From Umboniibacter marinipuniceus (GTDB taxonomy: Bacteria > Pseudomonadota > Gammaproteobacteria > Pseudomonadales > DSM-25080), in assembly GCF_003688415.1 (NCBI RefSeq), contig NZ_REFJ01000001.1, positions 710,405-774,404 on the forward strand: a stretch of DNA of 64,000 nucleotides, written 5' to 3'. The first letter of the stretch is position 1, and each line of letters starts with the position of its first letter. A program made the translations under genes and the position numbers. A model generated the notes under the pieces. That model made no database searches. It saw nothing but the letters and a program-made list of their open reading frames with translations, and had not been told where the DNA came from. Positions 4,997 through 29,830 of the stretch are shown here, piece by piece.

Positions 4997-5808
4997 GCAG
5001 AGAAGCGGAAGTATCAAGTCATAAACTGATGAAGCTAAAGATATTAGTTGATATGGACGACACCATCGCCAATTACTCCGAGGCGTTTAGTCGTGCGAGG
5101 AGAGCCGTGCCAGGCATTCAGTATCCTCAAAGCCAAGTCGACTTCTTTAGAAATCTAGACCCGATCGCTGGGGCGGTGCGCTGTGTGGAAGAGCTCATCG
5201 AGGAGGGGCACGACGTTTGGTTTCTGACAGCGCCGTCGGTATACAATCCGTTGAGCTATATGGAAAAGCGCATTTGGATCGAGAAGCACTTTGGTTTGAA
5301 CATGGCGCATAAAATGATTATTGCTTACAACAAATCAATGATTGAAGGCGATGTTCTCATCGATGATGGTACTGTGCATGGGCAATGCGAGTTCAGAGGT
5401 ATTTGGCTGCGCTATGGCAGCTCGAGCTATGGCTCGTGGGATGAGTTGGTGAGGGAAGTGCGAGCGATATCCGTGGAGGGTGTCGAGCGATCGTCGAGTC
5501 ACGCTAAACGTGCCCACGATACCAAGCGGCGTTTCGCCTGTTGCCCGTTTTGCGGTGCCAGTGTGGAGTTCTGGTCGGCGTTTCCTTTTACGGCTTGTGA
5601 GAGCTGCGCTGAACGCGCGACGGATGAAAATGGCAGGTCGGTCGATTATTACAACACGCACATAAGTGGCGGGCTTGAGGGACGGTATAGTGATACCAAC
5701 GAAGTCTACTCGGCAGATTATTGCTTCATCGACGGGACGGAGTGTGTGGCGGTGGATACTCGCTTGGGTGGGCCGGCGATTTGTGTGTGCGTTGGAAAGC
5801 ACGCATGA
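4993..5808 (+). CDS. 5'(3')-deoxyribonucleotidase-like HAD phosphatase with C-terminal zinc ribbon
   Basis: 271 residues. The HAD motif I DMDDT at about residues 19-23 (ILVDMDDTIANY), the motif II-like FLTAPS and a motif III-like VLIDDGTVHG match bacterial 5'(3')-nucleotidases, which dephosphorylate nucleoside monophosphates. Beyond residue 175 is an extra segment with CPFCGA and CESC, a four-cysteine zinc ribbon, then an Asp/Tyr-rich tail. This tail is not part of usual family members. An alternative ATG at codon 13 is possible, but the ATGA overlap with the upstream gene favours the start given. It is the last gene of the coupled operon. Confidence 0.75.
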   Translation: MSREAEVSSHKLMKLKILVDMDDTIANYSEAFSRARRAVPGIQYPQSQVDFFRNLDPIAGAVRCVEELIEEGHDVWFLTAPSVYNPLSYMEKRIWIEKHFGLNMAHKMIIAYNKSMIEGDVLIDDGTVHGQCEFRGIWLRYGSSSYGSWDELVREVRAISVEGVERSSSHAKRAHDTKRRFACCPFCGASVEFWSAFPFTACESCAERATDENGRSVDYYNTHISGGLEGRYSDTNEVYSADYCFIDGTECVAVDTRLGGPAICVCVGKHA

Positions 5809-12730: not shown

Positions 12731-13621
12731 TTAGCTGTCAGAGTTCACAAGGACCGTACCAGTTGGCACTGGTAACCACCCAGCAATCTCCTCCAGATTC
12801 CCCACCTCAATCTGCTGCGATAATGGACTGTCGTTCTTCAGCTCAGGGTTAATGTTGTAGGCATCCAGTACGTACTTTATCAAAGCGGATCGAGTATCGA
12901 TGATCAGCTTTCCTTTGATCATTCCGTAGTCTTTTTCAATTACGGACTTCTGCTTCGTGGTAAGTCGTCTGTCAGCAATGATTTCTATAGAATTGCGTTG
13001 GCGCCAGGCCTGATCGCTGCTTTCGGTAAAGGACGCTTTGTCATTAATGTCGGGAATACCATGTACGCGGCTTAGCACGAAATCTCGGTAGTCCCGTGCC
13101 TTTTCGCAATACCCTCGAAAGTGCCAACGAATGGGGGTGCATACCAGCGAGTGAGGTGAAACAATTCGCTCGCTCATCTCACCTGAACTGAGTGAGGTGT
13201 AATTGATGTCCACGCGCTTCTTTTCACGTATCGCCTGAACAATCGGCTTGAGTATCTCGGGGTCGATATTGCGATTGGTCGGTTTGATCGAAACCGTACT
13301 TCGAAACCCCATGTCGATCTCTTCAAAGCTGGCCGAAATGTCGGAGCTACGCGCCAGCAGATGCAGGTATTCATCAGATGTGCCGACTGTTAATTCAGGT
13401 TGAAAGGTACTGCTAGGGACGTATCCTTTAGCGTGCTTGTCGTAGACGAGGTTGCCTGGCGCGATGCCCGCCAAGTAGCTGTTGATGTCTTTGGATGCTT
13501 GTTGACGGCTGATTCCAAAACCTTTAGTAAGGTGAGTGGTGGTTAACCGGCCTTCCCATTTCGCAATAATTTCGATCAGTCGGTACCTAAACAGAAGGTC
13601 CCACCTTAAAGGCCATCCCAT
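12731..13621 (-). CDS. WYL-domain transcriptional regulator (BrxR/CapW-like)
   Basis: 296 residues: an N-terminal winged helix-turn-helix (about 5-70, TTTHLTKGFGISRQQASKDI), a WYL domain (about 125-210, VDINYTSLSSGE, then PHSLVCTPIRWHFRGYCEKARDYRDFVLSRV) and a C-terminal WCX-like extension. This three-part layout is that of BrxR/CapW regulators, which repress phage-defence loci such as BREX and CBASS and respond to a ligand. The gene is divergent from the CoiA-like nuclease and upstream of the restriction operon, with a palindrome in the shared promoter. Regulation of the defence block is inferred. Confidence 0.8.
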   Translation of the reverse strand: MGWPLRWDLLFRYRLIEIIAKWEGRLTTTHLTKGFGISRQQASKDINSYLAGIAPGNLVYDKHAKGYVPSSTFQPELTVGTSDEYLHLLARSSDISASFEEIDMGFRSTVSIKPTNRNIDPEILKPIVQAIREKKRVDINYTSLSSGEMSERIVSPHSLVCTPIRWHFRGYCEKARDYRDFVLSRVHGIPDINDKASFTESSDQAWRQRNSIEIIADRRLTTKQKSVIEKDYGMIKGKLIIDTRSALIKYVLDAYNINPELKNDSPLSQQIEVGNLEEIAGWLPVPTGTVLVNSDS

Positions 13622-13645
13622 GAGTCATTCACCCGTCAATTAATC

Positions 13646-13676
13646 TTACATGTTTATGTAAACAGTATTTACATGT
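13646..13676. promoter_or_regulatory. Operator-like inverted repeat between the WYL regulator and CoiA-like gene
   Basis: TTACAT-GTTT-ATGTAA (13646-13661) is a perfect inverted repeat with 6-base arms, and TTACATGT recurs in direct orientation at 13669-13676. It is 25 to 55 bases upstream of the regulator start, the position expected for an autoregulated WYL-family operator controlling both directions. Confidence 0.6.
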
Positions 13677-13741
13677 CGTTATTGATGTCATATTTTCATT
13701 TCTCTTTGGAATGGTCAAGCGAAACACGGAGGTAGTCGACC

Positions 13742-15430
13742 ATGCTGATTCCCTTTGGAAAAAAAGATGGCGTGTTAGTTCACGTGAATAACGTCGAGAA
13801 CGGAGCCAGTTGTGGGTGCATTTGCCCTAACTGTGGTCGACCGCTTGTAGCGAAAAATCGAGGTAAAAAGAAACGTCAGCACTTTGCTCACGCTGTTGGA
13901 TTCGAGTGCAGTGACTACGACACCATGACGTATCTACATCAGTACGCGCAAGATCTAATCCTCGCCAAAGGAAGCGTGATGCTTCCGAGCTACGAGCAAC
14001 GCCCCGAGCTTAGTTTACTTGATGGGGGACGGATCTATGGCGATACAGTGGCTCGCAAAGCTCAGAGACATCAGTTCGATAGCGTGAAGCTGGAAGTATC
14101 CTGGAGTCAGTATCGAATTGATTGTGTCGGTACTACTGAAACGCGTGACCTGTTCATCGAAATCACCGTGACCCACGAAAACGAGTCAGAGAAGCTCGGC
14201 GCTTTCAAGCGCGAAGATGTACCTGCCATTGAGGTCGACCTTTCGCAGCTTCATAACTCGGATCGTTTGTACGACGACGAAGCAATAAACGCCGCGGTAT
14301 TTAATCCCGAGAACGGACAATGGCTTAATCACCCCAGAGCCGAAAACGAGTACGTTTCGAGGCTTGATGAGCTGAAGGCTGAGCAAGCTCGGCGCAATGA
14401 AGCCATTCGTAAGCAACAGGTCGAAGCTGAAAGGCAAAGAGAATTCAAACGAAAAGTGGCAGAAGCGGAACAGCGCCGTATTGATGCCGCAAGGCAGAAG
14501 CGCCGTGACGAACTCTCGGAGGAGCTCGAATGGCTCGATATGTTTAATTCTGGTGAAGAGATACAGCGGCTAAAGGCCATGCCGATAGATGAAGAGCTCG
14601 CTTCTAACTTGTCAGTTTCGGCACCTTGGCCCATTACAGGGATGCCGGTTAAAGGTAGCTGGATATTTGGTGTTCGGAATGAAGATTGGCAGCACGTGGT
14701 ATTGGACTTTTTAAATCTGCGAAGGAAGCCGGAGTTTTCGGCAAACGACGTCAAGCGTCACTTAGTCCGGACTGTTGGAATACACCCAGTAATGAAACGA
14801 CTTAATATCGCTAGATACGAAGCAAAAAAGCAGACTCGAAAACGCGGCAAAGATGACTCTTACGGAGCTTGGTACCTGTCTAAGGAAGAGAACCGAAAGA
14901 TCATCTCACCATTCGTTCCAGTTTCAGAGTACCTAAAGCACCTTGTATCAATGTCCATGATCGCGCGCCACGGTGAGAATTATTTACTTACTTCGAACTC
15001 GATGAAGAACAATGTAGACCAAATGTTGCGAGAAAGAGAAGAGAATGCAAAGAGGCTAGCACTCGAAGAGGAAAAGGACAGAGAGTTACTAGAGGAACAG
15101 CAAGAATTAGAGAGAGTAGGCAAGGGATTATATAAAGGTGAAATCGAGGAACGAGCTCGGCAGCTTGCGACGATTGATAACGAAATTTTCCAAGAAGAGC
15201 GGCAGGATGCGTGCCGTTGTGCTAATTGTTATTTCTTGGCGAGATCGATTCCTGCGGACTCAAAATGCGAATTTTGCGGTCAGTTCACTCTTACAGGGGA
15301 GCTAGAAGGTTTCGACTCATACAATCCGTCGCTATTTCATAAATATCGTTGTACGCAGGTTCCAAAGAAAAGTTTACGAGCCCTCAGCAGGGCTGACCTG
15401 CTGAGTAGATATCCGGAGCTATTTGAATAG
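13742..15430 (+). CDS. CoiA-like nuclease-family protein
   Basis: 562 residues. The N-terminus has CGCICPNCGRPL followed by KKKRQHFAH (about 26-55), the zinc-knuckle plus HFAH hallmark of CoiA-type proteins. It continues with a PD-(D/E)xK-like core (YRIDCVGTTETRDLFIEITVTHENESEKL, about 125-155). A charged coiled coil follows (about 205-265), then unrecognised sequence, and a C-terminal four-Cys zinc ribbon (CRCANC...CEFCG, about 497-520). CoiA proteins are linked to DNA processing during competence; paralogues in islands accompany defence genes. Good ribosome site (GGAGG) at 13730. Function here is inferred. Confidence 0.7.
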   Translation: MLIPFGKKDGVLVHVNNVENGASCGCICPNCGRPLVAKNRGKKKRQHFAHAVGFECSDYDTMTYLHQYAQDLILAKGSVMLPSYEQRPELSLLDGGRIYGDTVARKAQRHQFDSVKLEVSWSQYRIDCVGTTETRDLFIEITVTHENESEKLGAFKREDVPAIEVDLSQLHNSDRLYDDEAINAAVFNPENGQWLNHPRAENEYVSRLDELKAEQARRNEAIRKQQVEAERQREFKRKVAEAEQRRIDAARQKRRDELSEELEWLDMFNSGEEIQRLKAMPIDEELASNLSVSAPWPITGMPVKGSWIFGVRNEDWQHVVLDFLNLRRKPEFSANDVKRHLVRTVGIHPVMKRLNIARYEAKKQTRKRGKDDSYGAWYLSKEENRKIISPFVPVSEYLKHLVSMSMIARHGENYLLTSNSMKNNVDQMLREREENAKRLALEEEKDRELLEEQQELERVGKGLYKGEIEERARQLATIDNEIFQEERQDACRCANCYFLARSIPADSKCEFCGQFTLTGELEGFDSYNPSLFHKYRCTQVPKKSLRALSRADLLSRYPELFE

Positions 15431-16027: not shown

Positions 16028-18289
16028 ATGTCCCGTTACTGCGGAAGTAAAGATACAACGTCTCAACTTAATGCCGCGCAAGATTGGTTGGCCCGTTGTA
16101 TATACCAAAGAAAGTCGATATTCACCGATGATGCTATTTGGACGCTAGAAAATTTTCGAGCCTTAGATGAGAATTTTACAAATAGTCTAGATGAGGGCGA
16201 TGGTAAATATATAGAAAAGCTTGAAGCCTGCTTGTCAGAAACGGAAGGTCCAGTTAAGAAGTTGGTAGCCGAAATGACCTGGTTTATGGTGCTGTGTCTT
16301 AGTAATGCAGGTGTCATTTCTAAGCGTAAAAGCATAATGAACATATGGGCTTGGTCCGGTGAAGAGCTCGATATGGATTCGCCGTACCTATCAGATCAAA
16401 CCCTAAAGGGTATTGGTAGCGGCGGCCCTAGTTATAATGTTAACCGCTGGCGTGAATTGATTTACTTTATTCAGTTGGTTATCCGTCTGTTTGAGTACGA
16501 AGGTGAGGTGAAAACGATTTTTTCTGATGCCTGGGGATGTGCTGAATGGGTCGATCAGTTGGATGGCTATGGGCATCGGCAATTTCGCTATATGCTGCTT
16601 TATCTGCTGTTTCCAGATGTATACGAACGTATATTTAGTCGCTCAGAGAGGCAAAAAATTGTCCGAGGGTTTCTAGGGAAAACTCCCAAAGAAATACGGA
16701 AAATGACAGAGCTTGATATTGATAAGGCCATCCATAAAATCCGTACCGAACAGGAAAGAGAGCTAGAAAGCGATAAACTTGACTTCTATATTTCACCGCT
16801 TAAAGACGGCTGGATTGATCCCAAGGTTAAAGTCACATTATATGATGAGGCGCCAGAGCTAGAGGTCGACTTAGAGAAAAGACAAGCAACACTGTCTAAC
16901 GGCCCGCTCAATAGCATTTTATACGGCCCTCCTGGGACGGGTAAAACATACCAAACTTTGAATAGGGTTCTACGCATACTTGATCCGAAATTCCTGGAGG
17001 AAAACATCGAGAGTAGAGAGCGTTTAAAAGAGCGCTATGAACAGCTCAAAGCAGAGGGTCGTGTAGACTTTGTCACATTCCACCAAAGCTATGGGTATGA
17101 GGAGTTTATTGAAGGCTTACGAGCAGATACCGATGACAAGGGCCAAATCAGCTATAGAATTGAAGACGGTACATTCAAGGCCATCTGTATTAAAGCTCAG
17201 GCAGGTGTGGTTAATAACGATACATTAGATGCTTGTGTAAAAGCCTTTATCGCAGATATTGACGATAAAGAGCGCATAAAACTGAAAACCTCCACTAGTC
17301 GCGATTTCTATGTCGAATATCACGGTCATACCACATTACGCGTATTTCCTGTTGACAGTAAAAACGAAGACAATACGCGTGGCTACCCCGTATCCATTCA
17401 AAGCATAAAAAACCTCTATCGCGGTATCAACGTTGATAAGTTTTATAACAAATCTTACGTTAAAGGTGTTCTCCAGTATTTAATTACCCATTATCAGCTA
17501 CCAGCAACCTATCAGGCAACGGACAACGCAACCGGTAATTATGTATTGGTAGTCGACGAAATCAATCGGGGCAACATTTCAAAAATATTTGGTGAGCTTA
17601 TAACGCTCATAGAGCCTTCAAAACGTCTTGGCGAAGAAGAGGCGCTGACCGTAAGCCTGCCTTATTCAAAAGATGAGTTCGGAGTACCTAATAATCTATA
17701 CTTGGTGGGCACCATGAATACCGCTGACCGCTCGTTGGCGATGATGGATACGGCCCTCCGTCGCCGCTTTGATTTTATTGAAATGATGCCAAAACCCGAT
17801 GTGTTAGATAATGCGGAAGTCAAAGGCTGTAATTTAGAAGAGTTACTCTCGATAATGAACCAGCGGATAGAATACCTCTATGATCGCGAACATACTTTGG
17901 GTCATGCCTTTTTTATTCCGGTAAAGCGCGCCTTAGAGGAAAGTGAAGAGGCGGCTTGGCTAGCCCTGCAAAATGTATTCAGGAATAAAGTACTTCCGTT
18001 ACTTGAAGAGTACTTCTTTGAGGACTGGAGCAAAATACGTCTGGTATTAGGCGATAACCAGAAAAAAGATCCACGCCTACAGTTTGTGCTAGAAGACAAA
18101 CTCACCGGCAATTTAGATGCCCTGTTCGGTCAGAGCTATCAGTCAGATGAGTACAGTGACGCTCAAATGGCTTACAGCATAAACACAAACGCTTTTAAAC
18201 GGCCTAGTGCCTACAGCCAAATCATCAGCGGTGGGGAGATAGAGGAAGTACCCACTCAGAGCGTCAGCGAGGCCACTGTTGAATCATGA
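16028..18289 (+). CDS. mcrB: McrB-like AAA+ GTPase of a modification-dependent restriction system
   Basis: 753 residues. The AAA+ core has Walker A GPPGTGKT at 300-307, HQSYGYEEFIEGLR, Walker B VVDEINRGNISKIFGEL, and the sensor region GTMNTADRSLAMMDTALRRRFDF, including the NTAD motif that in McrB confers GTP preference. A specificity region of about 130 residues is inserted between Walker A and Walker B (about 385-510). The N-terminal 260 residues are not the methyl-DNA-binding domain of E. coli McrB and probably read a different target. McrB hexamers power DNA translocation for McrC cleavage. Ribosome site AGAAGGAAA; its stop overlaps mcrC. Confidence 0.88.
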   Translation: MSRYCGSKDTTSQLNAAQDWLARCIYQRKSIFTDDAIWTLENFRALDENFTNSLDEGDGKYIEKLEACLSETEGPVKKLVAEMTWFMVLCLSNAGVISKRKSIMNIWAWSGEELDMDSPYLSDQTLKGIGSGGPSYNVNRWRELIYFIQLVIRLFEYEGEVKTIFSDAWGCAEWVDQLDGYGHRQFRYMLLYLLFPDVYERIFSRSERQKIVRGFLGKTPKEIRKMTELDIDKAIHKIRTEQERELESDKLDFYISPLKDGWIDPKVKVTLYDEAPELEVDLEKRQATLSNGPLNSILYGPPGTGKTYQTLNRVLRILDPKFLEENIESRERLKERYEQLKAEGRVDFVTFHQSYGYEEFIEGLRADTDDKGQISYRIEDGTFKAICIKAQAGVVNNDTLDACVKAFIADIDDKERIKLKTSTSRDFYVEYHGHTTLRVFPVDSKNEDNTRGYPVSIQSIKNLYRGINVDKFYNKSYVKGVLQYLITHYQLPATYQATDNATGNYVLVVDEINRGNISKIFGELITLIEPSKRLGEEEALTVSLPYSKDEFGVPNNLYLVGTMNTADRSLAMMDTALRRRFDFIEMMPKPDVLDNAEVKGCNLEELLSIMNQRIEYLYDREHTLGHAFFIPVKRALEESEEAAWLALQNVFRNKVLPLLEEYFFEDWSKIRLVLGDNQKKDPRLQFVLEDKLTGNLDALFGQSYQSDEYSDAQMAYSINTNAFKRPSAYSQIISGGEIEEVPTQSVSEATVES

Positions 18290-19674
18290 AGGCATATACG
18301 ATCTTTGAATACGGACATATTACTGCAAAACCTGCCACGTCAGCCGTTCAGGTTAGTCAGAAAGGTTTCCGTTATTTAGAGAATCTAGCTCTAGATAGCA
18401 CTAACGCCGAATCTGGTTTTCTGAAATTAACAAAAATTAGTGGGCAGCGGGCAATTCAAGTGCGTAACTATGTAGGCGTTTTACAATTACCCACCACAGA
18501 GCAACTAGAAATCTTGCCCAAAATTGCAAAACTTGCACCGGCTTATGGTGATGGCTTTGTCGGGCAAAGTGCATCTTCAATAGCGGCCTTTAGTGAGTCG
18601 CGTTCAGCACTACTTAATATGCTTAGGTCTTTGAAATACTTCCGTCATATTGCTTCAGCAGAGTCATCGCTGGCGACATCAAAGCTGCCGCTGTTAGATA
18701 TATTCATTTCCCAATTCTTAGCCTCAGTCAACCAGCTAATAAAGCGTGGTTTACGTTCAGAATACCTGTCACGTGAAGATAATGTACTATTTCTAAAGGG
18801 TAAATTACTGCCGAGTAAACAGTTAAAACACAACCTTGTTAATAAGCAACGTTTCTATGTAGAGCAGGACGAATACCTGAATGATCGCCCAATAAACCGT
18901 TTGATTCATACTGCTTTAAAAAAAGTGGCCGCCTATACCCACGTCAACAGTCAACAGAAACTATGCCGTGAATTAAGCTTCGCCTTTTCCGATGTGCCTA
19001 CCAGCAAAAATGTGAAGCAGGATTTTGCAGTCGTAAAAATGACACGTGGCATGGAGTATTACCGTCAACCACTAGCCTGGGCTAAGTTAATTCTCGAAGG
19101 ATTAAGCCCGATAGCGATGGCGGGTCAGGCCAAAGGCATTTCATTGTTGTTTCCCATGGAGGCGGTTTTTGAGGCCTACGTAGCAAGAGTTTTAGCGGAG
19201 CAACTGCCGGCCCCTTATCGTTTGAATGAGCAGGCAAAGGGGGAAACGCAACACCTTGTAAGTTTTGGTGATAAAAATTGGTTCCGCTTAAAACCCGACT
19301 TGTTAATCAAGCAAGGCAAGTCCACCGTGCTAGTTATGGATACCAAATGGAAGCTGCTAGATAGCCAGAAGAATAACGGCACGGATAAGTTAGGTTTATC
19401 ACAGGCCGATTTTTATCAGATGTTTGCCTATGGACATAAATACTTACAAGGGGCGGGGGATATCGTGCTTATCTACCCCGCTACAGCAACCTTTAGCCAG
19501 CCTATAGAGTCCTGTTTTCAATTTAATGAAGGGGCGGGTGGTTCAAACCTGCGTTTATGGGTGGTCCCTTTTGATGTGGCCACTCCAACACCAAACGTTG
19601 CGCGCATGATGTGGCCAACAGCACTTCATGGCTTTAGCCCGGTACATGGAAAAAGCACATTGCAAATGGCATAG
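18286..19674 (+). CDS. mcrC: McrC-like nuclease subunit
   Basis: 462 residues, ATGA overlap with mcrB. The C-terminal nuclease centre reads RLKPDLL near 337, then VMDTKWK with D352 and K354, i.e. the PD-(D/E)xK arrangement of McrC. The N-terminal region (IFEYGHITAK...) and the middle segment (QDEYLNDRPINRLIH) match the general McrC architecture of a stalk that inserts into the McrB ring plus the nuclease domain. In known McrBC systems McrC stimulates McrB GTPase and cuts DNA between modified sites. Catalytic residues look intact. A 56-base gap to the methyltransferase suggests the operon continues. Confidence 0.88.
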   Translation: MKAYTIFEYGHITAKPATSAVQVSQKGFRYLENLALDSTNAESGFLKLTKISGQRAIQVRNYVGVLQLPTTEQLEILPKIAKLAPAYGDGFVGQSASSIAAFSESRSALLNMLRSLKYFRHIASAESSLATSKLPLLDIFISQFLASVNQLIKRGLRSEYLSREDNVLFLKGKLLPSKQLKHNLVNKQRFYVEQDEYLNDRPINRLIHTALKKVAAYTHVNSQQKLCRELSFAFSDVPTSKNVKQDFAVVKMTRGMEYYRQPLAWAKLILEGLSPIAMAGQAKGISLLFPMEAVFEAYVARVLAEQLPAPYRLNEQAKGETQHLVSFGDKNWFRLKPDLLIKQGKSTVLVMDTKWKLLDSQKNNGTDKLGLSQADFYQMFAYGHKYLQGAGDIVLIYPATATFSQPIESCFQFNEGAGGSNLRLWVVPFDVATPTPNVARMMWPTALHGFSPVHGKSTLQMA

Positions 19675-19730
19675 CACGGGGCGCTCACCAGACTGTCGTC
19701 AACAACCAAGAATGAATGAGATCGTAGTTA

Positions 19731-22454
19731 ATGAATATCACTCAAATTGAAGAAAACGTAAGATCATTACTCAATAGCATGAGTTCAGGTGACATGGAAC
19801 AATCAGATTTTATCTATGAGTTGCTATTGGCCTATGGTCACCGCAAGCAGTCGGTCACTCGTTTGCGCTCAGGGGAGCGTAACCTTTCCGCCAAAGATAA
19901 TAGCCCTCGCCACGATGAAATTATCTGGAAGCGCCATCTGTACTTCAAGCAGGTAGAAGGCGACGCCCTGCACACTGAAATTGACCAGATGCGCAAAGAA
20001 AAGCTGGTCACTACCAATAAGATTCGTTTTGTTATTGTCACCAATTTTGATCAGCTCTTGGCGGTCGATACCAAAACATCTGATTCACTGGATATCAACC
20101 TAAACGAGCTACCCAAGCAGTTTGACTTCTTCCTGCCTTGGGCGGGTATGGAAAAGGCGGTTTACCAAGGTGAAAACCCTGCAGATATAAAAGCTGCGGA
20201 AAAAATGGCAAAGCTGTTTGACCTTATCAAGGGTGATAACTTTGATGAGTCGAATAAAGACGATACCGAGGCGCTACACAACCTCAATGTCTTCTTAACT
20301 CGCCTACTCTTCTGTTTCTTTGCTGAAGATACCGAGATCTTTGCTGACAACCAATTTAGCCGTGCTATCGAGTCTCATACTAAAGACGATGGTAGTGATC
20401 TACCGGATTACTTGAACCGTTTGTTCTCTGTTTTAAATACCGCCGATGGGTACCGTGGCGAGCTACCCGATTATCTAGCCAGCTTTCCGTATGTGAATGG
20501 CGGCTTATTTGCCGATGATATTCTATCACCAGTATTTTCTGCCAAGGCTCGCCGCATGCTAATCGAATGCGGAAGTGAGCTGGACTGGTCTGATATCAAT
20601 CCCGATATTTTCGGCTCGATGATTCAGGCCGTGGTTCATCCAGACCAGCGCGGCGGTATGGGTATGCACTATACCTCGGTTTCCAATATCATGAAGGTGA
20701 TTGAACCGCTGTTTTTGAATGACTTTTACGAAGAGCTGGAAAAAGTTGAGAATAGTGCGACCAAACTGCACAAGCTGCAACAGCGCTTAGGTGAAATTAA
20801 AATATTCGACCCTGCCTGTGGTTCCGGAAACTTCCTGATTATTGCCTATAAAGAACTGCGCAAGCTTGAGATGGAGGTACTGAAACGCCTGCAAGAATTG
20901 TATGATGAAAAGCAAGATCTTAAGTCAGGTGTAATGGCTCAGGTTATTCAGCCTTTTTCGGTTATTAAACTGTCTCAATTTTACGGCATTGAGCTGGATG
21001 ACTTTGCCCATGAGGTCGCCATATTGTCTTTGTGGTTGGCTGAGCATCAGATGAATGTGGAGTTTAAGACTGAGTTTGGTGAAGTGCTACCATCTTTGCC
21101 ATTGCAGAAAGGTGGCAGCATTATTTGTGCTAATGCCACTCGTATCGAGTGGACTGATGTATGCAGTAATAAAGGTGAAATTTACATTCTTGGTAATCCT
21201 CCTTACTTAGGTCATAGCCTGCAAAGTAAAGATCAAAAGAATGATATTGAATTTGTATTCCAGGGAACATCAAATTATAAGAAACAAGACTACATCTCAT
21301 GCTGGTTTTATAAGGCTGCTTACTTTATCAACAAGGAAAGTAGTTTTTCTTTTGTTACAACTAACTCTCTATGTCAAGGGGCTCAGGTTGAAATTCTATG
21401 GCCAAAGCTATATGAAGCTGGTGTAGAGATTGGTTTTGCACATAAGAGCTTTAAGTGGAGTAACAATGCAAGGAGAAATGCAGGAGTCATTTGTTCCATT
21501 ATTGGAATGAGGCATAGCGCTGATAAGGTTAAAAGAATCTATTATCAAGGGGTTTCGGTAATTGTTGGAAACATAAACTCATACCTTGTTGATAGCTTGG
21601 ATACGATAGTTGTTAAAGCAACGAGGCCAATATCAGATTTGCCGAAAATGACTTCAGGCAATAAGCCTTTGGATGGTGGTTATCTCGTTCTGAGTCCAGA
21701 GGAAAAGGAGTGTTTGTTGGAAGAAGCTCCTAATGCCTCAAAATTTGTTAGAAGATTTATTGGATCAAGTGAATATATACGAGGGAACGAGCGATGGTGT
21801 CTCTGGATTAGTGATGATGAACGATTGGATGCCGAATCTATAGACCAGTTAAAGAGACGTTTTGATAAAGTTCGTGAGGTTAGGCTTAATGGAGGGAATA
21901 ATGCAAGAAATAAAGCTGATTCTCCGCATAAATTTGAGTTTGCAAATGAACCTGATAAATCTCAGATTATCGTACCTAGAGTTTCTTCGGAGAGGCGTGA
22001 ATATATTCCGGTCGGTTATCTAGATAATAATGTTGTGATTGCGGATTCCGCTCAAGTTTTGTTTGATCCAGACCCATATGTGTTTAGTTTGATTAACTCA
22101 AAAATGCACATGGTTTGGGTGGATGTGACTGCTGGGCGTTTGAAGTCAGATTATCGCTACTCTTCGCAATATAGCTATCACACGTTTCCTGTTCCTACTT
22201 TAAGTGAGTCTGATAAGAACGAGCTAAAGATTAGCGCGATGAATATTTTGTCGGCTAGAGCTAATTATCCAGAGAAAACTCTTGCCAAACTGTATGACCC
22301 AAATGAAATGCCAAAAGGCTTACGTGCGGCTCACGAAGAAAATGACAGAATTGTAGATTCGATTTACCGAAAGAAAGAGTTTATAAATGACGACGAGCGG
22401 TTAGCTGTATTATTTGAGCTGTATAAAAAAATGACAGGAGGTCAAAATGCCTAA
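19731..22454 (+). CDS. MmeI-like class I N6-adenine DNA methyltransferase
   Basis: 907 residues. Motif I is at 359-366 (FDPACGSGNF) and the catalytic motif IV is NPPY at 489-492, the order and sequence of gamma-class N6-adenine methyltransferases. A target-recognition region follows (about 640-850), where YIRGNERWCLWI and VPRVSSERREYIPVG resemble MmeI/PglX/DrmMI-type enzymes. The N-terminal 300 residues are helical and lack a recognisable MmeI PD-(D/E)xK nuclease, so nuclease activity probably comes from the neighbours. The middle section from about 21220 to 22260 is more AT-rich than its flanks, as expected for an exchanged specificity region. It overlaps the helicase gene by eight bases. 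Confidence 0.8.
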   Translation: MNITQIEENVRSLLNSMSSGDMEQSDFIYELLLAYGHRKQSVTRLRSGERNLSAKDNSPRHDEIIWKRHLYFKQVEGDALHTEIDQMRKEKLVTTNKIRFVIVTNFDQLLAVDTKTSDSLDINLNELPKQFDFFLPWAGMEKAVYQGENPADIKAAEKMAKLFDLIKGDNFDESNKDDTEALHNLNVFLTRLLFCFFAEDTEIFADNQFSRAIESHTKDDGSDLPDYLNRLFSVLNTADGYRGELPDYLASFPYVNGGLFADDILSPVFSAKARRMLIECGSELDWSDINPDIFGSMIQAVVHPDQRGGMGMHYTSVSNIMKVIEPLFLNDFYEELEKVENSATKLHKLQQRLGEIKIFDPACGSGNFLIIAYKELRKLEMEVLKRLQELYDEKQDLKSGVMAQVIQPFSVIKLSQFYGIELDDFAHEVAILSLWLAEHQMNVEFKTEFGEVLPSLPLQKGGSIICANATRIEWTDVCSNKGEIYILGNPPYLGHSLQSKDQKNDIEFVFQGTSNYKKQDYISCWFYKAAYFINKESSFSFVTTNSLCQGAQVEILWPKLYEAGVEIGFAHKSFKWSNNARRNAGVICSIIGMRHSADKVKRIYYQGVSVIVGNINSYLVDSLDTIVVKATRPISDLPKMTSGNKPLDGGYLVLSPEEKECLLEEAPNASKFVRRFIGSSEYIRGNERWCLWISDDERLDAESIDQLKRRFDKVREVRLNGGNNARNKADSPHKFEFANEPDKSQIIVPRVSSERREYIPVGYLDNNVVIADSAQVLFDPDPYVFSLINSKMHMVWVDVTAGRLKSDYRYSSQYSYHTFPVPTLSESDKNELKISAMNILSARANYPEKTLAKLYDPNEMPKGLRAAHEENDRIVDSIYRKKEFINDDERLAVLFELYKKMTGGQNA

Positions 22455-24387
22455 CCTAATCGATGTCACCTACGCCCAAACCGGCGAAAGCACCTCCACC
22501 AATGACATGGGGATGAGGGCCATGCAGGCTCGCGCCTATGAAGCCAGAGATAACCAATACTTATTGATCAAAGCACCACCGGCTTCTGGTAAGTCTCGTG
22601 CCCTGATGTTTATTGCCTTGGATAAACTCTATAACCAGGGTGTAAAAAAAGCCATTGTGGCGGTGCCTGAGCGCTCTATTGGCGGCTCCTTCGGTAACGA
22701 GCCATTAAGCAAATATGGCTTCTTTAGAGACTGGGAGCTTGAAGAGAAAAACAACCTATGTATCCCAGGTGGCGATGGCAATAACAGCAAGGTTAAGGCG
22801 CTAAAAGAGTTTGTTAAGGGTGACGACAAAATTTTGGTTTGCACCCATGCCACCTTGCGTTTCGCCTGTGCCGAGCTAGAAGATTCCGACTTTGATAATG
22901 TCCTGTTAGCGATTGATGAGTTTCACCATGTCTCAGCCGATGGTGAAAACGTATTGGGTGAAACTCTGCGCTCATTAATGGCCAATAGCAGCGCCCACAT
23001 TGTTGCCATGACTGGCTCTTACTTCCGTGGTGATAGCGTACCGGTGCTTTTACCGGAAGATGAAGCTAAGTTTGCCAAGGTCACGTTTAACTATTACGAG
23101 CAGCTAAATGGCTACCAGTATTTGAAATCCCTAGGTATTGGCTATCACTTTTATCAGGGCCGCTATACAGATGCCATTGATGAGGTATTAGATACCGATA
23201 AGAAAACCATCATTCATATCCCTAGTGTCAACTCGGGTGAATCCACCAAAGATAAGTACGATGAGGTGGATGCCATTATCGACTCCATTGGTGACTTTGT
23301 TGCCAAAGATAGTGAGACCGGCGTGATCACCATTAAGCGTAAGGGGGATGGCAAGCTGATTAAGATGGCCGACCTGGTGCATGACGACGCCAAAGATCGC
23401 GACAAGATTGTGGAGTATCTGCGCAATATTGATAGCGTGGATGATATGGACGTGATTGTTGCCCTAGGTATGGCTAAAGAAGGGTTTGACTGGTCTTACT
23501 GCGAGCACTCGTTAACGGTGGGTTATCGAGGCTCCCTCACTGAGGTGATCCAGATTATCGGCCGCTGTACCCGTGACAGCGACAACAAGACCCACGCGCA
23601 GTTTACCAACCTGATTGCTCAGCCTGATGCAGCGGATGATCAGGTCAAGATTGCCGTTAACAATATGCTCAAAGCCATTACTTGCTCGTTATTGATGGAA
23701 CAGGTTCTGGCTCCTAACTTCAAGTTTAAAACCAAGCTACCTGACGATGGTGAGGCTACACCACCTGGCACCATGAAAGTGGGCGGCTTTAAAGAACCAA
23801 GCACCCAGCGCACTAAAGATATTGTTGAGCAAGACCTGGCCGATTTGAAAGCGGCTATTTTGCAAGATGAAAAAATCATCGCTGCATCAGCCGGTGCGGT
23901 TGATCCTGAGGTGGTGAATAAGGTTCTGATCCCCAAGATCATTCAAACTAAATACCCTGACTTAACCGCCGAAGAGTTGGAAGAAGTGCGCCAGCATGTG
24001 GTGGTGGATTCAGCCGTTAGTGCTGGTGAGATTAAGGAAGAAGGCGATAAGAAATTCATCAAGATGGCGGATAAATTCGTCAATATTGACGATTTGAATA
24101 TCGACTTGATTGACAGCATCAACTCGTTCCAAAAAGCGTTTGAAATCTTATCTAAATCGGTTACGACCAATGTACTGAAACTGATTCAGGAGTCCATTGA
24201 ATCCACTCGTATTAAAATGGATTTTGAAGAGGTGAAAATTCTCTGGCCCAAGGTCAATGCCTTTGTAAAAGAGAAAGGCCGCCAGCCTGATTTGAACGCG
24301 GCAGATTTGATTGAGCGCCGCCTCGCTGAGTGCATCATCTGGATTAAAGAGCAGAAGCGCCAGAAGGCTCAAGAGGCAAATGCATAA
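22447..24387 (+). CDS. SF2 DEAD/DEAH-type helicase-like ATPase
   Basis: 646 residues. Walker A PPASGKS at 44-50; Walker B AIDEFHH at 155-161 (DEFH box); MTGS motif III near 194; a second RecA domain with motif VI QIIGRCTRDS at 369-378. This is a complete SF2 ATPase. The C-terminal stretch (about 600-646, WPKVNAFVKEKGRQPD...ERRLAECI) resembles a small helicase-associated domain. It overlaps the methyltransferase (8 bases) and the nuclease (1 base). Role: probably DNA translocation in a restriction-like complex, as in type I/III/DISARM systems; that is inference from context. Confidence 0.78.
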   Translation: MPNLIDVTYAQTGESTSTNDMGMRAMQARAYEARDNQYLLIKAPPASGKSRALMFIALDKLYNQGVKKAIVAVPERSIGGSFGNEPLSKYGFFRDWELEEKNNLCIPGGDGNNSKVKALKEFVKGDDKILVCTHATLRFACAELEDSDFDNVLLAIDEFHHVSADGENVLGETLRSLMANSSAHIVAMTGSYFRGDSVPVLLPEDEAKFAKVTFNYYEQLNGYQYLKSLGIGYHFYQGRYTDAIDEVLDTDKKTIIHIPSVNSGESTKDKYDEVDAIIDSIGDFVAKDSETGVITIKRKGDGKLIKMADLVHDDAKDRDKIVEYLRNIDSVDDMDVIVALGMAKEGFDWSYCEHSLTVGYRGSLTEVIQIIGRCTRDSDNKTHAQFTNLIAQPDAADDQVKIAVNNMLKAITCSLLMEQVLAPNFKFKTKLPDDGEATPPGTMKVGGFKEPSTQRTKDIVEQDLADLKAAILQDEKIIAASAGAVDPEVVNKVLIPKIIQTKYPDLTAEELEEVRQHVVVDSAVSAGEIKEEGDKKFIKMADKFVNIDDLNIDLIDSINSFQKAFEILSKSVTTNVLKLIQESIESTRIKMDFEEVKILWPKVNAFVKEKGRQPDLNAADLIERRLAECIIWIKEQKRQKAQEANA

Positions 24388-25601
24388 TGGATTTGGATGA
24401 GTTTCTTGAATTTGCCACTGCCAATGATGAGCTGGGACTACTAACCGTAAAGGCGAAAACCTCCGCGCCTACAGCCGATGAGCACCTGTTAGCTAAATTC
24501 AATGAGATTAATGATTTTGTAACCGCTAAGGGCCGCGAGCCAGAGCCGGATATGGCCAATGTACCTGAGTACATGCTGAATCAACGGCTAAATGCCATTC
24601 GTGATAATGCAGAGCAATGTGCTGCGTTAAGCGAATTTGATGCACATGGTCTTCTGCCTGCTATAGCGCTAGAAGAGGTGGCTGAACCTGAAGCTGAATA
24701 TGCGGTAGTGACCGAGCCTAAAGAAATAGAATCTTTAGATGATATTTTTTCTGATGATGCTTTAGGGTTGTTAGATGATGGTGCTGAAAGTATCTTTACG
24801 ATGAAGCATGTCCCCCAGTCTATTGATATGCCTAGCAAGATTGCTAAGCGCAAGCGATGTAAAGATTTTGAGCAATACGAAGATCTATTTAAAGCTTGTC
24901 ATGCCGATCTAAAATCGGGTGAACGTGAGCAACATAAGTTCACCGGCGAGCAACAAATTCAGCAGGGCCAGTTCTTCGTTCTACACGGTGTCATGTGTTA
25001 TGTCGCTGATACGGAAGAGCGTGTTAAGAAGAATGGTAAGGTCAATGCCAAATTACACCTCATCTTTGAAAACGGCACAGAATCTAATATGTTACTGCGG
25101 TCGTTAGCTACTGAACTGTATAAAGATGAAACGGGCAGGCGGGTAATGCCTAAATCAGAGAATGCTTTGGATGGAATGTTAGGCATCAAAGAGGATGATC
25201 AGGCATCTGGCTACATCTATATTCTCCAATCTTTGAGTGTTAATCCTGAGATTAGCTCAATCCAAAATCTATATAAAATTGGTTATGCCAATACCTCTGT
25301 TGAAAAGCGCATTGCTAATGCGGCCAAAGAACCAACCTACTTGATGGCCCCTGTACATCATGTTTCGTCATATCAATGTTTCAATATGAATGCCCAGAAG
25401 TTCGAAAACCTTCTGCACACGTTTTTTGGTAAAGCTTGCTTAGATATTGAAGTTGCAGATTCGACTGGAAAGATGTGCAAGCCTAGAGAGTGGTTCATTG
25501 CTCCGCTGAAGGCTATTGAGATGGCTATTCTACTATTGACTAACGGCGAAATTGTTCATTACAGGTATGACTTGGTATCTGAGCAAGTTGTTGAAAGGTG
25601 A
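24387..25601 (+). CDS. GIY-YIG (T5orf172/Mug113-type) nuclease
   Basis: 404 residues. The nuclease domain is C-terminal: GYIYIL at 275-280, LYKIGYAN around 295-302, VEKRI near 308, and KFENLLHTFF with the likely catalytic Glu, then REWF. The N-terminus (about 30-75, FNEINDFVTAKGREPEPD, then MLNQRLNAIRDN) repeats the small domain at the C-terminus of the helicase upstream. A middle region, 90-165, is acidic and probably linker. As the last gene of the five-gene operon it is the presumed DNA-cutting subunit for the methyltransferase/helicase part. No known restriction enzyme name can be given. Confidence 0.78.
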   Translation: MDLDEFLEFATANDELGLLTVKAKTSAPTADEHLLAKFNEINDFVTAKGREPEPDMANVPEYMLNQRLNAIRDNAEQCAALSEFDAHGLLPAIALEEVAEPEAEYAVVTEPKEIESLDDIFSDDALGLLDDGAESIFTMKHVPQSIDMPSKIAKRKRCKDFEQYEDLFKACHADLKSGEREQHKFTGEQQIQQGQFFVLHGVMCYVADTEERVKKNGKVNAKLHLIFENGTESNMLLRSLATELYKDETGRRVMPKSENALDGMLGIKEDDQASGYIYILQSLSVNPEISSIQNLYKIGYANTSVEKRIANAAKEPTYLMAPVHHVSSYQCFNMNAQKFENLLHTFFGKACLDIEVADSTGKMCKPREWFIAPLKAIEMAILLLTNGEIVHYRYDLVSEQVVER

Positions 25602-25749: not shown

Positions 25750-26076
25750 CTAGGGCCTACGCCACTCACCATCTTCCAAATCATCTTTCCACTGCCACCA
25801 TACCCCTCTTTCTTTAAGAATCTTTTCTATATGGCGGTAATATCGGTAGCGATAGGACGGCTTATACTCGGAACAGTACTCGGATAAAAACCAGATATAG
25901 TGCTTTTTCTTAACACCGAACCTGACCGAGTCGATACCCCAGTGATCGAGGATAGCCTCGTGAATACGGTCGGCAGCAAGGAGTTTGGCATGGATCGCTG
26001 TTCTCGATCCTGTCGCTAACGCTCGTCGAGCGATGGATTTTTGTTTTTTGATAAAATGAGTAATAGCGCCGCTCAT
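25750..26076 (-). CDS. Small helical protein of the AlpA-integrase module
   Basis: 108 residues, basic N-terminal half (KKQKSIARRALATGSRTAIHAKLLAADRIHEAI) and an aromatic C-terminal half (YIWFLSEYCSEYKPSYRYRYYRHIEKIL). The pattern resembles a SAM-like core-binding domain of tyrosine recombinases without the catalytic part. It overlaps the integrase gene by four bases and is its downstream partner. It probably assists recombination, but no function is documented that I can cite. Confidence 0.55.
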   Translation of the reverse strand: MSGAITHFIKKQKSIARRALATGSRTAIHAKLLAADRIHEAILDHWGIDSVRFGVKKKHYIWFLSEYCSEYKPSYRYRYYRHIEKILKERGVWWQWKDDLEDGEWRRP

Positions 26077-26966
26077 CTTTTCTTCCCCCGTAGAGTGCCT
26101 AAGTAAGAATTGGTTATTTGCCAGCGCGAGTGGCCCATTTCCTCTGAAAGGGCTAGTCGAATGGCGCGATCGTGCTCTTTGTTGTAGTTCTTGGGAACAG
26201 TGTCCGTGTTGATGGGTGCGAGGTGGCCAGCCGCGCGTTCAAACTTCGTAACTGCGAAGTAGGTACGTAAGTCGTGGATACAAGCAATCCCGTTTGATTT
26301 TAAGATGGGTTGTAGCTTCCGCTCACACAGCCGATAGAAATAGTCACTATTAGCATCCTCTCCTAATAAATTCCCCCGTTGGTTAGTCGCTAGAGGTAGG
26401 GCTTCTACTAGTACCTCCTCGATATCCTCAAGAGGTGTCACTAGGCGTTCGACTTCTCTAGACCTTCCGCCTTTAGTTCCGTGAATAACATCGACCCTAC
26501 CAATGGTTCGATATGAACGAAGCGACTCGCGGATTTCGAGTAAAATGGCTTCGCGTAGACGAAGCCCTAGAAGCGCACAAATCATCACTACACTGCCGAG
26601 ACGCGGCGATAGCTCGCCGGCCTCAAAAGCGGCTTTCCTTATGTTCGCGAGATTGAAACGTAAAGGACGAACCCTTACCCTCACGCGTTTTCGTTCGGAC
26701 GAGTCGGCTGGCGAAATAACGAGATCCTCTCGGCCTTTAAAGGCTAAAAAGCCGTTCGTGGACGAAAGGACGTTATGCGCGTAGGCAGTCGAGTACCATG
26801 ATAGTGAGCGCGAAAAGCGCTCAATATCTTCGCGTTCTATCTCCTCCAGGCTCAACTCTTCGGCGCTTAGAAAATCGACGAAGAGTTGGAGCCGAGTTTC
26901 GTCGGCTCGTAGCGTGGCGGCAGCCACAGGCAGCCGCCTGCGGCTCCCCAAAAACTCCTCAATCAT
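26073..26966 (-). CDS. Integrase-domain tyrosine recombinase (second recombinase of the island)
   Basis: 297 residues from the ATG at 26966, chosen because it overlaps the AlpA stop by eight bases (ATGATTGA); a start at 27062 would overlap AlpA by over 100 bases. Catalytic residues are visible: Arg in LLGLRLREAI, Lys in HGTKGGRSREV, His-x-x-Arg in IHDLRTYFA, and MGHSRWQITNSYLG with the second His and the nucleophilic Tyr. The N-terminal core-binding domain is present. It acts on an unknown site; being away from ssrA, it probably belongs to a different, nested element. Confidence 0.8.
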   Translation of the reverse strand: MIEEFLGSRRRLPVAAATLRADETRLQLFVDFLSAEELSLEEIEREDIERFSRSLSWYSTAYAHNVLSSTNGFLAFKGREDLVISPADSSERKRVRVRVRPLRFNLANIRKAAFEAGELSPRLGSVVMICALLGLRLREAILLEIRESLRSYRTIGRVDVIHGTKGGRSREVERLVTPLEDIEEVLVEALPLATNQRGNLLGEDANSDYFYRLCERKLQPILKSNGIACIHDLRTYFAVTKFERAAGHLAPINTDTVPKNYNKEHDRAIRLALSEEMGHSRWQITNSYLGTLRGKKR

Positions 26967-27150
26967 TCGCCGCCACCCAGGAAAGTAAATCCTCGTAGCG
27001 CCACATCGCGCAGGACTTGTAGGATCCGAACTTAAGCGGGGCCGGGAAAATTCCGCCGGCAACCCATCTATCTAACGTCGAAGTAGAGATCGAGAGTAGC
27101 GCCGCCACATGCGGTTTACGGAGTAAAAGTAGATCTTTATTTTTGTTCAT
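26959..27150 (-). CDS. AlpA-family excisionase-like regulator
   Basis: 63 residues from ATG 27150 (AGGG eight bases upstream), with a MerR-like helix-turn-helix: LLLLRKPHVAALLSISTSTLDRWVAGGIFPAPLKFG, then a Trp-containing strand. AlpA proteins control excision and expression of integrases in prophages and islands. The gene is directly upstream of, and translationally coupled to, the integrase at 26073-26966. Confidence 0.8.
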   Translation of the reverse strand: MNKNKDLLLLRKPHVAALLSISTSTLDRWVAGGIFPAPLKFGSYKSCAMWRYEDLLSWVAAND

Positions 27151-27159
27151 AAAAGTCAC

Positions 27160-27771
27160 CCTAAAAATTGATTTTTTAATTGAAAGAGTTCCGTTAAGGC
27201 CCGAACGCGTCTTCGTAGGTTTAGCGAGAGGAAGATTTTCGCGAACGCGGAAAGTCGTAACTAGCGCGTATTAGGTTGAGAAGGGGGGCTTGGTAAGATT
27301 AAGTCGATTCAAAAAGCTATCTCGACGCGAGACGCACGGAACTAAACATCTAGCGGGACTTTTCGAATTGGATTTTTCTTATGGGAAATCCCGAATCACT
27401 TCTATCGTCCGCCCAAGCGAAAAATCCAAAATGATGCGACTTCTAATAAAAAAAAGGACCTATCTTAAAGTAACAGGCAGGGGTGCCCGTCGTAAGTAGT
27501 AATAAATTTTTATAACTACTTTTATTTAACAGCGTAGCTCGAATAAGCCGTCGCTGTTTGAAAGAATAAATCAAATCGGTGTTATAAGACCTATACAGGC
27601 ACTATCTTCACGGACGTAATTTAAAGCTTTCTGGATTCGTACTAGTACTTTTAATACTAAACGTAATAATCTTCGGCTATCCCGAAGCGGCTTTATTTAA
27701 AAAGCGATTAGATGCTGACTTCAGCTCGCTCAGCTACGAGTTTATGACCAGTCTGGCCAGTATTAATATTT
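27160..27771. other. Non-coding 0.6-kb stretch between the two recombinase modules
   Basis: No convincing gene. A 69-codon, Arg/Lys-rich frame at 27290-27499 on the plus strand has no ribosome site and unnatural composition. Visible structure: an inverted repeat AACAGCG / CGCTGTT around 27529-27558 and AT-rich sequence around 27505-27530. The stretch may hold the promoter of the AlpA operon (near 27160-27190, AT-rich) and the former end of one of two joined elements. Confidence 0.4.
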
Positions 27772-28962
27772 TTACTCCATGTGATTGACCCCGTCAAGGA
27801 CTTTTTTGCCCCACGCGGCCATCATTGATCTTCGTTGTTCTAAGTAGTCACTTCGATTATATGCCCGGCGTACTTCGTTCTCATCAGCGTGTGCTAATGC
27901 TGCCTCAATCCAATCTGCGTTGAAACCTGCTTCGTTCAAGTAGGTCGAGGCAATCGATCTAAAACCATGGCTGACGAGTCTATCGCCCCAGCCCGCCCGT
28001 CGCACTACGGCGTTAACGGTCTGGCTGTTGATATGCTCGCGAGGGTGTTTTACGCCAAAAAAGACATATTCTGAAGCCTTGTGACGTTCGACTCCATCTA
28101 ATATATCCAATAAGTAACAGTTCAACGGTACTCTGTGCTCCCGCTTCATCTTCATCACTTCGGGTGGCAGAGTGAGTACCTTTCGGTCAAAATCAAACCA
28201 TTCCCATTCAACGCAAGCCGCCTCGGCTGGTCGTAGCATTGTCGCCAGCTGAAAGTAGAGTAATTGCTTCACGCGCGGATGGCATTGAGTTTTATCAATA
28301 TCTGCCAGGAAATCCGCCAGCGCTTCTGGCCGAATCGATCGCATAGCCGTCTTGGTTGGAGGCGGGAAAATCGCTGAAATCTCCGCGAGTCGGTTGTGTT
28401 CAATAACGCCGCTATTTACGGCATAGCGCATGATCTGATTGATGATTTGGATGACACGTTTAAGGGTTTCTAGCTTACCGTCGCGCTGAAGCTTCCTTAA
28501 CGAATTAATTGCCAGGGGTGCGTTAATCTCCGTAATTTGAATATTGCCAAGCGCCGGAAAGACATGCATTTCTAATCGTCGACGGATATCGACGAGGTGG
28601 TCGGCCGAAATACTATGTTGTTTAAAATCCATCCACTTAAGCGAGACATCTTTAAAGGTGTTAAGTGCTTCGAGCTCAGCAGCACGAGACTTTTTCGATT
28701 CAAGAACAACGTCAACGCCTTCGGCGACTCGCGCAAGAAAGTTACTAGCGGCCTGCCGGGCTTCGGCTAGACCAAGACTAGGAAAACCGCCTAGTCCGGC
28801 ACTTGATCTCCTTCCATCCGGACGTTTGTATTCTAATACCCAGTTGCGCGCACCGCTTGGGATGATGCGGAGGATTAATCCTCCGCCATCGCGTAACGTA
28901 TAGGCCTTCGCCTTGGGCTTTGCTGTCGATACTTCTCGATGTGTTAGTTTGAATTTTTTCAT
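27772..28962 (-). CDS. P4-type tyrosine integrase (ssrA-associated)
   Basis: 396 residues from ATG 28962 (AGGGAGC ten bases upstream). The N-terminal arm-binding domain of P4-like integrases is present (AYTLRDGGGLILRIIPSG, then WVLEYKRPDGRR, then GGFPSLGLAEAR, about 20-70), then a core-binding domain (about 100-190) and the catalytic domain with Arg in MLRPAEAACVEW, Lys in MKMKREHRVPL, His-x-x-Arg in VSHGFRSIAS, and LAHADENEVRRAYNRSDY. Catalytic residues are intact, so the enzyme may be functional. It inserts elements into tRNA/tmRNA 3' ends; the gene lies about 490 bases from the ssrA end, the usual layout. Confidence 0.92.
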   Translation of the reverse strand: MKKFKLTHREVSTAKPKAKAYTLRDGGGLILRIIPSGARNWVLEYKRPDGRRSSAGLGGFPSLGLAEARQAASNFLARVAEGVDVVLESKKSRAAELEALNTFKDVSLKWMDFKQHSISADHLVDIRRRLEMHVFPALGNIQITEINAPLAINSLRKLQRDGKLETLKRVIQIINQIMRYAVNSGVIEHNRLAEISAIFPPPTKTAMRSIRPEALADFLADIDKTQCHPRVKQLLYFQLATMLRPAEAACVEWEWFDFDRKVLTLPPEVMKMKREHRVPLNCYLLDILDGVERHKASEYVFFGVKHPREHINSQTVNAVVRRAGWGDRLVSHGFRSIASTYLNEAGFNADWIEAALAHADENEVRRAYNRSDYLEQRRSMMAAWGKKVLDGVNHME

Positions 28963-28965
28963 CAA

Positions 28966-29446
28966 TAATATGCTCCCTGCTGGCTAGTAAATTCGAACAC
29001 GTATGAGTACTTGTCAATACCCCAAAAAGCGGGTGAGTAGATAAAGTATGATTTGAGGAGAAATGAGGTGATTTGAGCAACCGACCGGTACGCCACGTAA
29101 TAGAATATTTTTCGAATGTGTGTAAAAACGCCGTTGCTTAGTATTGGTAAGGCCTGTGGCGATATGCTATCGGCTGATCTTGGTGGATATAACTTGGTTG
29201 AAAAGTGATCAGAGTCCCTCGGCGGCACATATTTACTGGCATAGCGAGAGTGGTGATTTGTGTAGGTTGTGTGTAACGCATGTGTGTATTTTGTGTGTAA
29301 AAAATAGCTGCGCTTAAATGAGCCAAGATGAGGAGATTTGAGCCAAGCTGACTTCGCAAAATGCACTAGAGCCCAGTGGTATCGGTGTTTTTGAGGTTTG
29401 ATTTGAGGAGATTTGAAGCGAGTTGACTCGCTTCGAAAGAAGAAAT
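28966..29446. repeat. Attachment-site region with direct repeats between integrase and ssrA
   Basis: No gene. Short repeats recur: TGATTTGAGGAGA at 29049-29061 and 29399-29411; GAGGAGATTTGA at 29330-29341 and 29405-29416, extended with mismatches to about 25 bases; further GATTTGAG-type units at 29070 and 29335; and several GTGTGTA(A) units at 29118-29125 and 29280-29300. Repeats of this kind are typical arm-type integrase binding sites. A perfect hairpin GAAGCGAG-TTGA-CTCGCTTC (29415-29434) lies 13 bases beyond the tmRNA 3' end and may terminate ssrA. Confidence 0.55.
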
Positions 29447-29830
29447 TGGTGGAGCCGGGGGGAGTTGAACCCCCGTCCGCCAGTACGCCATTTTCGGCTC
29501 TACATGCTTAGTCTCCCTCAATTAAGTTAACCGCAAACAGCCCGAGGGACAGGACGTTATTGGCGATCTTGATAAAAGTTTAGTAACGCAGCCTCAAGCA
29601 AACCTTGTTACGATCCAGTTCTATATGACAGTCAGCAGCGCGATACTGGCACCTTGCTGATGACCGATAGCGGGCGAACCGCTATTAAAGGTTTATGCAG
29701 CTAGTGCGTAACCTTCATAGTTAGAGTCGTTTGCAACTATAACAAATACAGCTTTGGATTAACGTGATTGGCTGTCATCACGGCATGCACCAGAAAACTT
29801 TGTTACCGTCGTCGAATCCAAGTCGGCCCC
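29447..29830 (-). ncRNA. ssrA: Transfer-messenger RNA (tmRNA), ssrA
   Basis: On the minus strand it starts GGGGCCGAC...GGATTCGACG (29830 downward) and ends GGTTCAACTCCCCCCGGCTCCACCA at 29447, with CCA encoded. The first seven bases pair with CGGCTCC near the end to form the acceptor stem. The tag-coding frame is at 29693-29734: GCA resume codon and residues ANDSNYEGYALAA, then TAA. About 384 bases, one piece. It rescues stalled ribosomes with SmpB, whose gene lies 5 kb away. A TATACT box on the minus strand (29853-29858) probably belongs to its promoter. Its 3' end is the island insertion site. Confidence 0.96.

Follow-up and report, generated by a model that had tools for sequence, protein, structure and literature searches.

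McrBC is a GTP-driven Type IV restriction enzyme that cuts DNA carrying a foreign, typically cytosine, modification. A census of these enzymes found McrBC of the NxxD branch beside restriction-modification genes such as hsd, and reported that associations of McrBC with methyltransferases recur (PMC11090510). The dnmA-yeeB-yeeC cluster, described in B. subtilis, encodes an m6A methyltransferase for GACGAG, then a helicase and then a T5orf172 protein, in an order that is conserved in many bacteria (PMC9973331). The observation that DnmA lacks a nuclease motif is credited there to Morgan et al. (PMC9973331). In B. subtilis, methylation by DnmA has been observed; loss of yeeB or yeeC there left the sensitivity to three phages unchanged, and the authors call the cluster a relic (PMC9973331). 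The role of the module in defence is disputed, no phenotype having been found in B. subtilis and deletions of dnmA and yeeB having altered phage sensitivity in V. crassostreae (PMC9973331).

Gene content of the locus

The window analysed here is a 64,000-nucleotide stretch of the genome of Umboniibacter marinipuniceus. The earlier note on this DNA had described five same-strand ORFs that overlap by 4, 8 and 1 bases apart from one 56-base gap, and had assigned their products to McrB, McrC, an MmeI-like methyltransferase, an SF2 helicase and a GIY-YIG nuclease. The ORF coordinates confirm this layout, and the family assignments hold in Pfam, PADLOC and NCBIfam scans. The features of the operon and of the adjoining island are the following:

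16028–18289, + strand: mcrB, AAA+ GTPase, 753 aa (ORF call, PF07728, PRK11331)
18286–19674, + strand: mcrC, nuclease partner of McrB, 462 aa (PF10117, 320 bits)
19731–22454, + strand: dnmA-like MmeI-family adenine methyltransferase, 907 aa (all five MmeI Pfam domains)
22447–24387, + strand: yeeB-like SF2 helicase/translocase, 646 aa (PF00270/PF00271/PF04851)
24387–25601, + strand: yeeC-like GIY-YIG (T5orf172) nuclease, 404 aa (T5orf172, MUG113)
19731–25601, + strand: three-gene unit dnmA-yeeB-yeeC, which moves as a block (DNA similarity to locus L017)
21153–22394, + strand: swapped specificity half of dnmA, about residues 475–888 (DNA comparison to L017)
26073–27062, − strand: tyrosine recombinase adjoining the operon (island context)
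27772–28965, − strand: P4-type integrase adjoining ssrA (island context)
29447–29830, − strand: tmRNA gene ssrA, a likely integration hotspot

The 56-base gap lies directly 5′ of the methyltransferase gene, at the mcrC-dnmA junction. No terminator-like site was found in it, which is compatible with a single transcript.

The first two genes encode an McrB-type AAA+ GTPase of the NxxD type followed by McrC, and they constitute a Type IV McrBC. The P-loop (GPPGTGKT), Walker B motif (VVDEINRG) and signature (MNTADRS) of McrB are intact, and the PD-DxK nuclease residues of McrC (D338, D352 and K354) are each conserved in more than 90% of family members. In its NxxD GTPase, in the conserved D/D/K of McrC and in having an adenine restriction-modification system at its side, like the Type I hsd genes in E. 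coli, the pair resembles the NxxD branch of McrBC; it differs in that the neighbour is DnmA-YeeB-YeeC, not hsdRMS, and in that the N-terminal stretch of about 290 aa of its McrB is without Pfam match (PMC11090510). For residues 1–290 no PDB sequence match was found either and no modified-base-binding domain of the DUF3578 type was recognised; the region is also present in several other McrB proteins. A prophage or viral origin of this McrBC was rejected, as scans of viral contigs gave no relatives. Just 5′ of mcrB (12731–15430), a gene for a WYL-domain regulator diverges from one whose 562-aa product has a weak CoiA N-terminal match; WYL genes lie close to McrBC in loci L130 and L133 too.

The last three genes belong to the published dnmA(yeeA)-yeeB-yeeC cluster, and novelty of the trio is not supported (PMC9973331). 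On the same strand, the SF2 helicase gene lies directly 3′ of the methyltransferase gene, and the T5orf172/GIY-YIG gene is third. The locus shares with the B. subtilis cluster and its relatives the three families and their order, a methyltransferase without nuclease motif and a link to defence islands, whereas McrBC directly 5′, another target-recognition half and an island adjacent to ssrA set it apart (PMC9973331; PMC7261158). No named PADLOC or NCBIfam system was obtained for the trio, the helicase and GIY-YIG genes giving weak cross-hits only.

A helicase-alignment scan of genome contigs gave at least 555 confirmed relatives. Of these, 80 loci, drawn from many phyla, were retained; together with 11 from the class, they make up the 91 annotated helicase loci, and rates taken from them are estimates. 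An MmeI-like methyltransferase gene is present in 81 of the 91 helicase loci listed and a GIY-YIG gene in 89. Among these loci the trio occurs across many phyla and is widespread without McrBC; on plasmids, 263 records have a helicase match. The listed modules vary internally: an insertion of 0.5–4.4 kb separates dnmA from yeeB in 39 of 81, including in L079 a RhuM-family gene, and by analogy these insertions resemble cargo genes within hsd operons. In L040 the order deviates, with the helicase and GIY-YIG genes 5′ of the methyltransferase gene.

Nuclease loss, target recognition and the YeeB-YeeC pair

The window methyltransferase matches PADLOC REase_MTase_IIG with 1034 bits. Its NPPY motif and its target-recognition and C-terminal domains are present, and it is predicted to be an adenine methyltransferase. 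That it comes without a nuclease of its own, as the earlier note had put it, proved correct: the PD-ExK motif is absent, the site reading HLYFKQVEG in the window as against LLIEHKSRG in stand-alone enzymes. Within the class, the ID-x(8)-hEhK motif is kept in 19 of 19 stand-alone MmeI-like proteins and in none of the 10 readable YeeB-linked proteins (Fisher p 5e-8); in the wider set, PD-ExK is missing from all 73 readable module copies. The protein thus lacks the N-terminal PD-ExK in the same chain that defines single-chain Type IIL (MmeI) enzymes. Homology to a fused-nuclease MmeI-like enzyme runs over the full-length methyltransferase and target-recognition parts (638 bits over residues 93–903); the differences are the missing PD-ExK and the separate helicase and GIY-YIG proteins that follow.

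Among the loci listed, the closest relative of the trio is L017, from the Cellvibrionales. Between positions 21153 and 22394 the window has no DNA similarity to it, while both flanks are 78–80% identical. Per 50 residues, DnmA is 74–96% identical to its L017 counterpart up to about residue 450 and 30–60% identical beyond it; YeeB and YeeC are kept throughout, at 74–98% in 50-residue blocks. The same pattern is found more widely. Over 2276 pairs, identity of the target-recognition domain (TRD) correlates with helicase identity at r 0.39, compared with r 0.83 for the methyltransferase core and 0.85 for the GIY-YIG protein. Helicases are 85–96% identical in 14 disjoint pairs, and in all 14 of these the target-recognition identity is only 37–51%, with its trough at residues 600–750; in seven otherwise dissimilar pairs the TRD is at least as similar as the core. 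Judged from these comparisons, the target-recognition half is exchanged among otherwise near-identical modules, and rapid divergence instead of exchange could lie behind part of the low target-recognition identity. As the TRD is nearly uncoupled from the helicase, YeeB and YeeC must either take their target from DnmA or ignore sequence.

YeeB has intact helicase motifs I, II and VI (APPASGKS, DEFHH and QIIGRCTR). YeeC is composed of an N-terminal motif, a small central barrel and a GIY-YIG domain, the active-site residues of which (Y278, K297/G299, R308 and E340) are invariant in 42 relatives. A helix-GRxP-helix motif is common to the C-terminus of YeeB (595–642) and the N-terminus of YeeC (35–80). 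The pair was aligned by hhalign with a probability of 95.4% (E 1.9e-8); in the controls, other YeeB and YeeC windows remained below 1% and DnmA windows reached at most 18%. It is plausible from the alignment that the motif serves as a dock between YeeB and YeeC; it may also be a common DNA-binding or helical element and not a dock.

In Foldseek, the predicted model of YeeB gave its best E-value with the Type ISP enzyme LlaBIII (E 4e-10), HsdR of EcoR124I also scoring high. Upon VIA-align of the same model, RIG-I-like and DEAD-box proteins ranked equal or higher; since LlaBIII was not singled out, we do not claim YeeB as specifically Type ISP, and at the level of the model it is the general SF2 core that matches. 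The predicted fold of YeeC 268–404 came closest to Slx1, a GIY-YIG nuclease (Z 6.3, rmsd 4.7 over 100 residues); in Foldseek, YeeC had no match below E 0.001. The trio is like Type ISP (LlaBIII) and Type I HsdR enzymes in combining an adenine methyltransferase and TRD with an SF2 translocase. It differs from them in that its nuclease is GIY-YIG and theirs PD-ExK, and in being distributed over three proteins: the nuclease, helicase, methyltransferase and TRD that Type ISP joins in a single chain are here encoded by three separate ORFs. Nor were Pfam domains of HsdM, HsdS or HsdR, as in Type I hsdRMS systems, found in the five window proteins.

McrBC and the trio in the ssrA island

Both modules sit head to tail and in one orientation in a variable mobile island beside ssrA. 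In a same-genus genome, synteny ends at position 29321, just beyond ssrA, and the sequence differs leftwards from there; neither McrBC nor the trio was found in either of the two same-genus genomes. A second copy of the ssrA end, which would be a candidate boundary repeat, was not detected elsewhere in the genome with up to 3 mismatches allowed. Between the operon and ssrA (25750–29366), two mutually unrelated tyrosine recombinases are encoded on the minus strand. Further to the left in the window (2137–5808), four genes with 4-base overlaps encode an SPFH/Band 7 protein, an unknown protein, an ADP-ribosylglycohydrolase and an NT5C-type nucleotidase; they resemble an operon for the handling of ADP-ribose or nucleotides, possibly with a link to defence.

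The earlier note had proposed that the five proteins might form one complex. Nucleotide similarity to L017 extends from 19731, the exact ATG of dnmA, to 25591. Since it starts at this ATG, McrBC lies outside the mobile unit, and the trio is modular apart from it; the idea of one complex was not borne out. Profile searches with McrB and McrC over all 91 helicase loci detected McrBC beside the module in only one other listed locus, Lutibacter L079, where it lies 3′ of the GIY-YIG gene, in the opposite order, about 300 bp away, and belongs to a more distant subtype. McrBC was found 5′ of dnmA in none of the 60 listed module loci with at least 4 kb of readable upstream sequence; in a few loci the contig stops too soon for this side to be read.

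The reverse comparison comprised 42 McrBC loci: plasmids and the first genome searches contributed 22, a phylum search the other 20. None of the 42 contains DnmA-YeeB-YeeC. The nearest relatives of the window McrBC are solitary or adjoin Type I hsd genes. Marinomonas has an mcrBC-hsdMSR arrangement, L213 and L218 have the order hsdM-hsdS-mcrB-mcrC, and in L219 hsdM is also 5′ of mcrBC. In the last three loci, mcrBC is part of a same-strand row of hsdM, hsdS, mcrB, mcrC and a gene for a protein of about 1120 aa without Pfam match, to which L213 and L218 add a protein of 1790–2070 aa; such rows are probably a mixed operon of Type I, Type IV and other defence genes. Among the 91 helicase loci listed and the 42 McrBC loci, the five-gene order was seen in the window alone, an outcome that the earlier note had named as refuting its proposal. 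A single five-gene system was rejected on this uniqueness and on the similarity block without McrBC.

That all five genes are nevertheless one selected system, with McrBC as nuclease arm or back-up of the trio, we regard as very improbable. Common strand, tight spacing and a terminator-free mcrC-dnmA gap favour it, as do the second McrBC near a module in Lutibacter and the recurrent McrBC-methyltransferase associations of the census (PMC11090510); the Lutibacter McrBC, however, is a more distantly related subtype that lies downstream and apart from the module, McrBC falls outside the block of DNA similarity, and the readable upstream regions are devoid of it. Co-occurrence points both ways. 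The order was surveyed over 205 genomes: 13 have the helicase, 10 have McrC and 3 have both, where 0.6 would be expected (p 0.02). This excess speaks for a link and also fits general defence-gene clustering; the two further genomes that have both carry McrC and YeeB on separate contigs. There is likewise very little likelihood that the modules are coupled as a five-protein unit in which McrBC would hit escape phages that modify their DNA, or would be recruited to DNA handled by YeeB. Given the rarity of the pairing, the position of McrBC outside the mobile unit and its solitary or hsd-adjacent relatives, the combination has the look of an "immigration control region" that arose by chance at the ssrA hotspot. 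The pairing is ordinary defence-island stacking, rare and local, and the integration hotspot explains why the two modules are neighbours.

Proposed activity of the trio

We consider it probable that the locus consists of two independent, stacked modules, a Type IV McrBC and a three-protein, m6A restriction-modification-like DnmA-YeeB-YeeC. The best reading of the trio is a split restriction-modification machine, similar to Type ISP and Type I, beside an independent Type IV enzyme. DnmA would recognise an asymmetric site through its TRD and methylate self DNA; at an unmethylated site, it would mark or load the translocase YeeB, and YeeC, docked on YeeB via the shared terminal motif, would cut in place of the dead N-terminal domain of DnmA. 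McrBC is known to read a cytosine mark, not m6A, and because the two marks differ McrBC and the trio should coexist. Protection by McrBC would be additive to that by the trio, not cooperative; the layered defence suggested by the earlier note is upheld as plausible.

Two other accounts of the trio, both unlikely in our judgement and to the same degree, have to be weighed. The trio might be a decayed restriction system in which DnmA is left as an orphan methyltransferase regulating host genes, as was proposed for B. subtilis, where an effect on gene expression accompanies the lack of a phage phenotype (PMC9973331). Against decay, the active-site residues of helicase and GIY-YIG nuclease are intact and invariant over 41–42 relatives, and the conservation of YeeB and YeeC relative to L017 (74–98%) while the target-recognition half was replaced is not what an orphan regulator would favour; the shifts in phage sensitivity upon deletion of dnmA and yeeB in V. 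crassostreae also speak against it (PMC9973331). Alternatively, the trio might act by BREX-like exclusion, methylation marking self and YeeB/YeeC blocking replication without target-linked cutting. BREX and DISARM also join a large adenine methyltransferase with ATPases or helicases, the window methyltransferase gives weak PADLOC cross-hits to PglX and DrmMI, and phage genomes show no depletion of DnmA sites (PMC9973331). The intact GIY-YIG active site of YeeC argues against such exclusion, and no pglZ, brxC, drmA or drmB was found by Pfam, PADLOC and NCBIfam among ten proteins in and around the operon.

The trio, not its pairing with McrBC, is hence the interesting part of this locus: its members come from many phyla, yet the single test published, in B. 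subtilis, detected no defence against phages. Consistent nuclease loss, TRD exchange and a motif common to helicase and nuclease together argue, at the level of sequence, that DnmA-YeeB-YeeC is a live, specificity-diversifying restriction system, a reading that can be tested by the swap of one domain.
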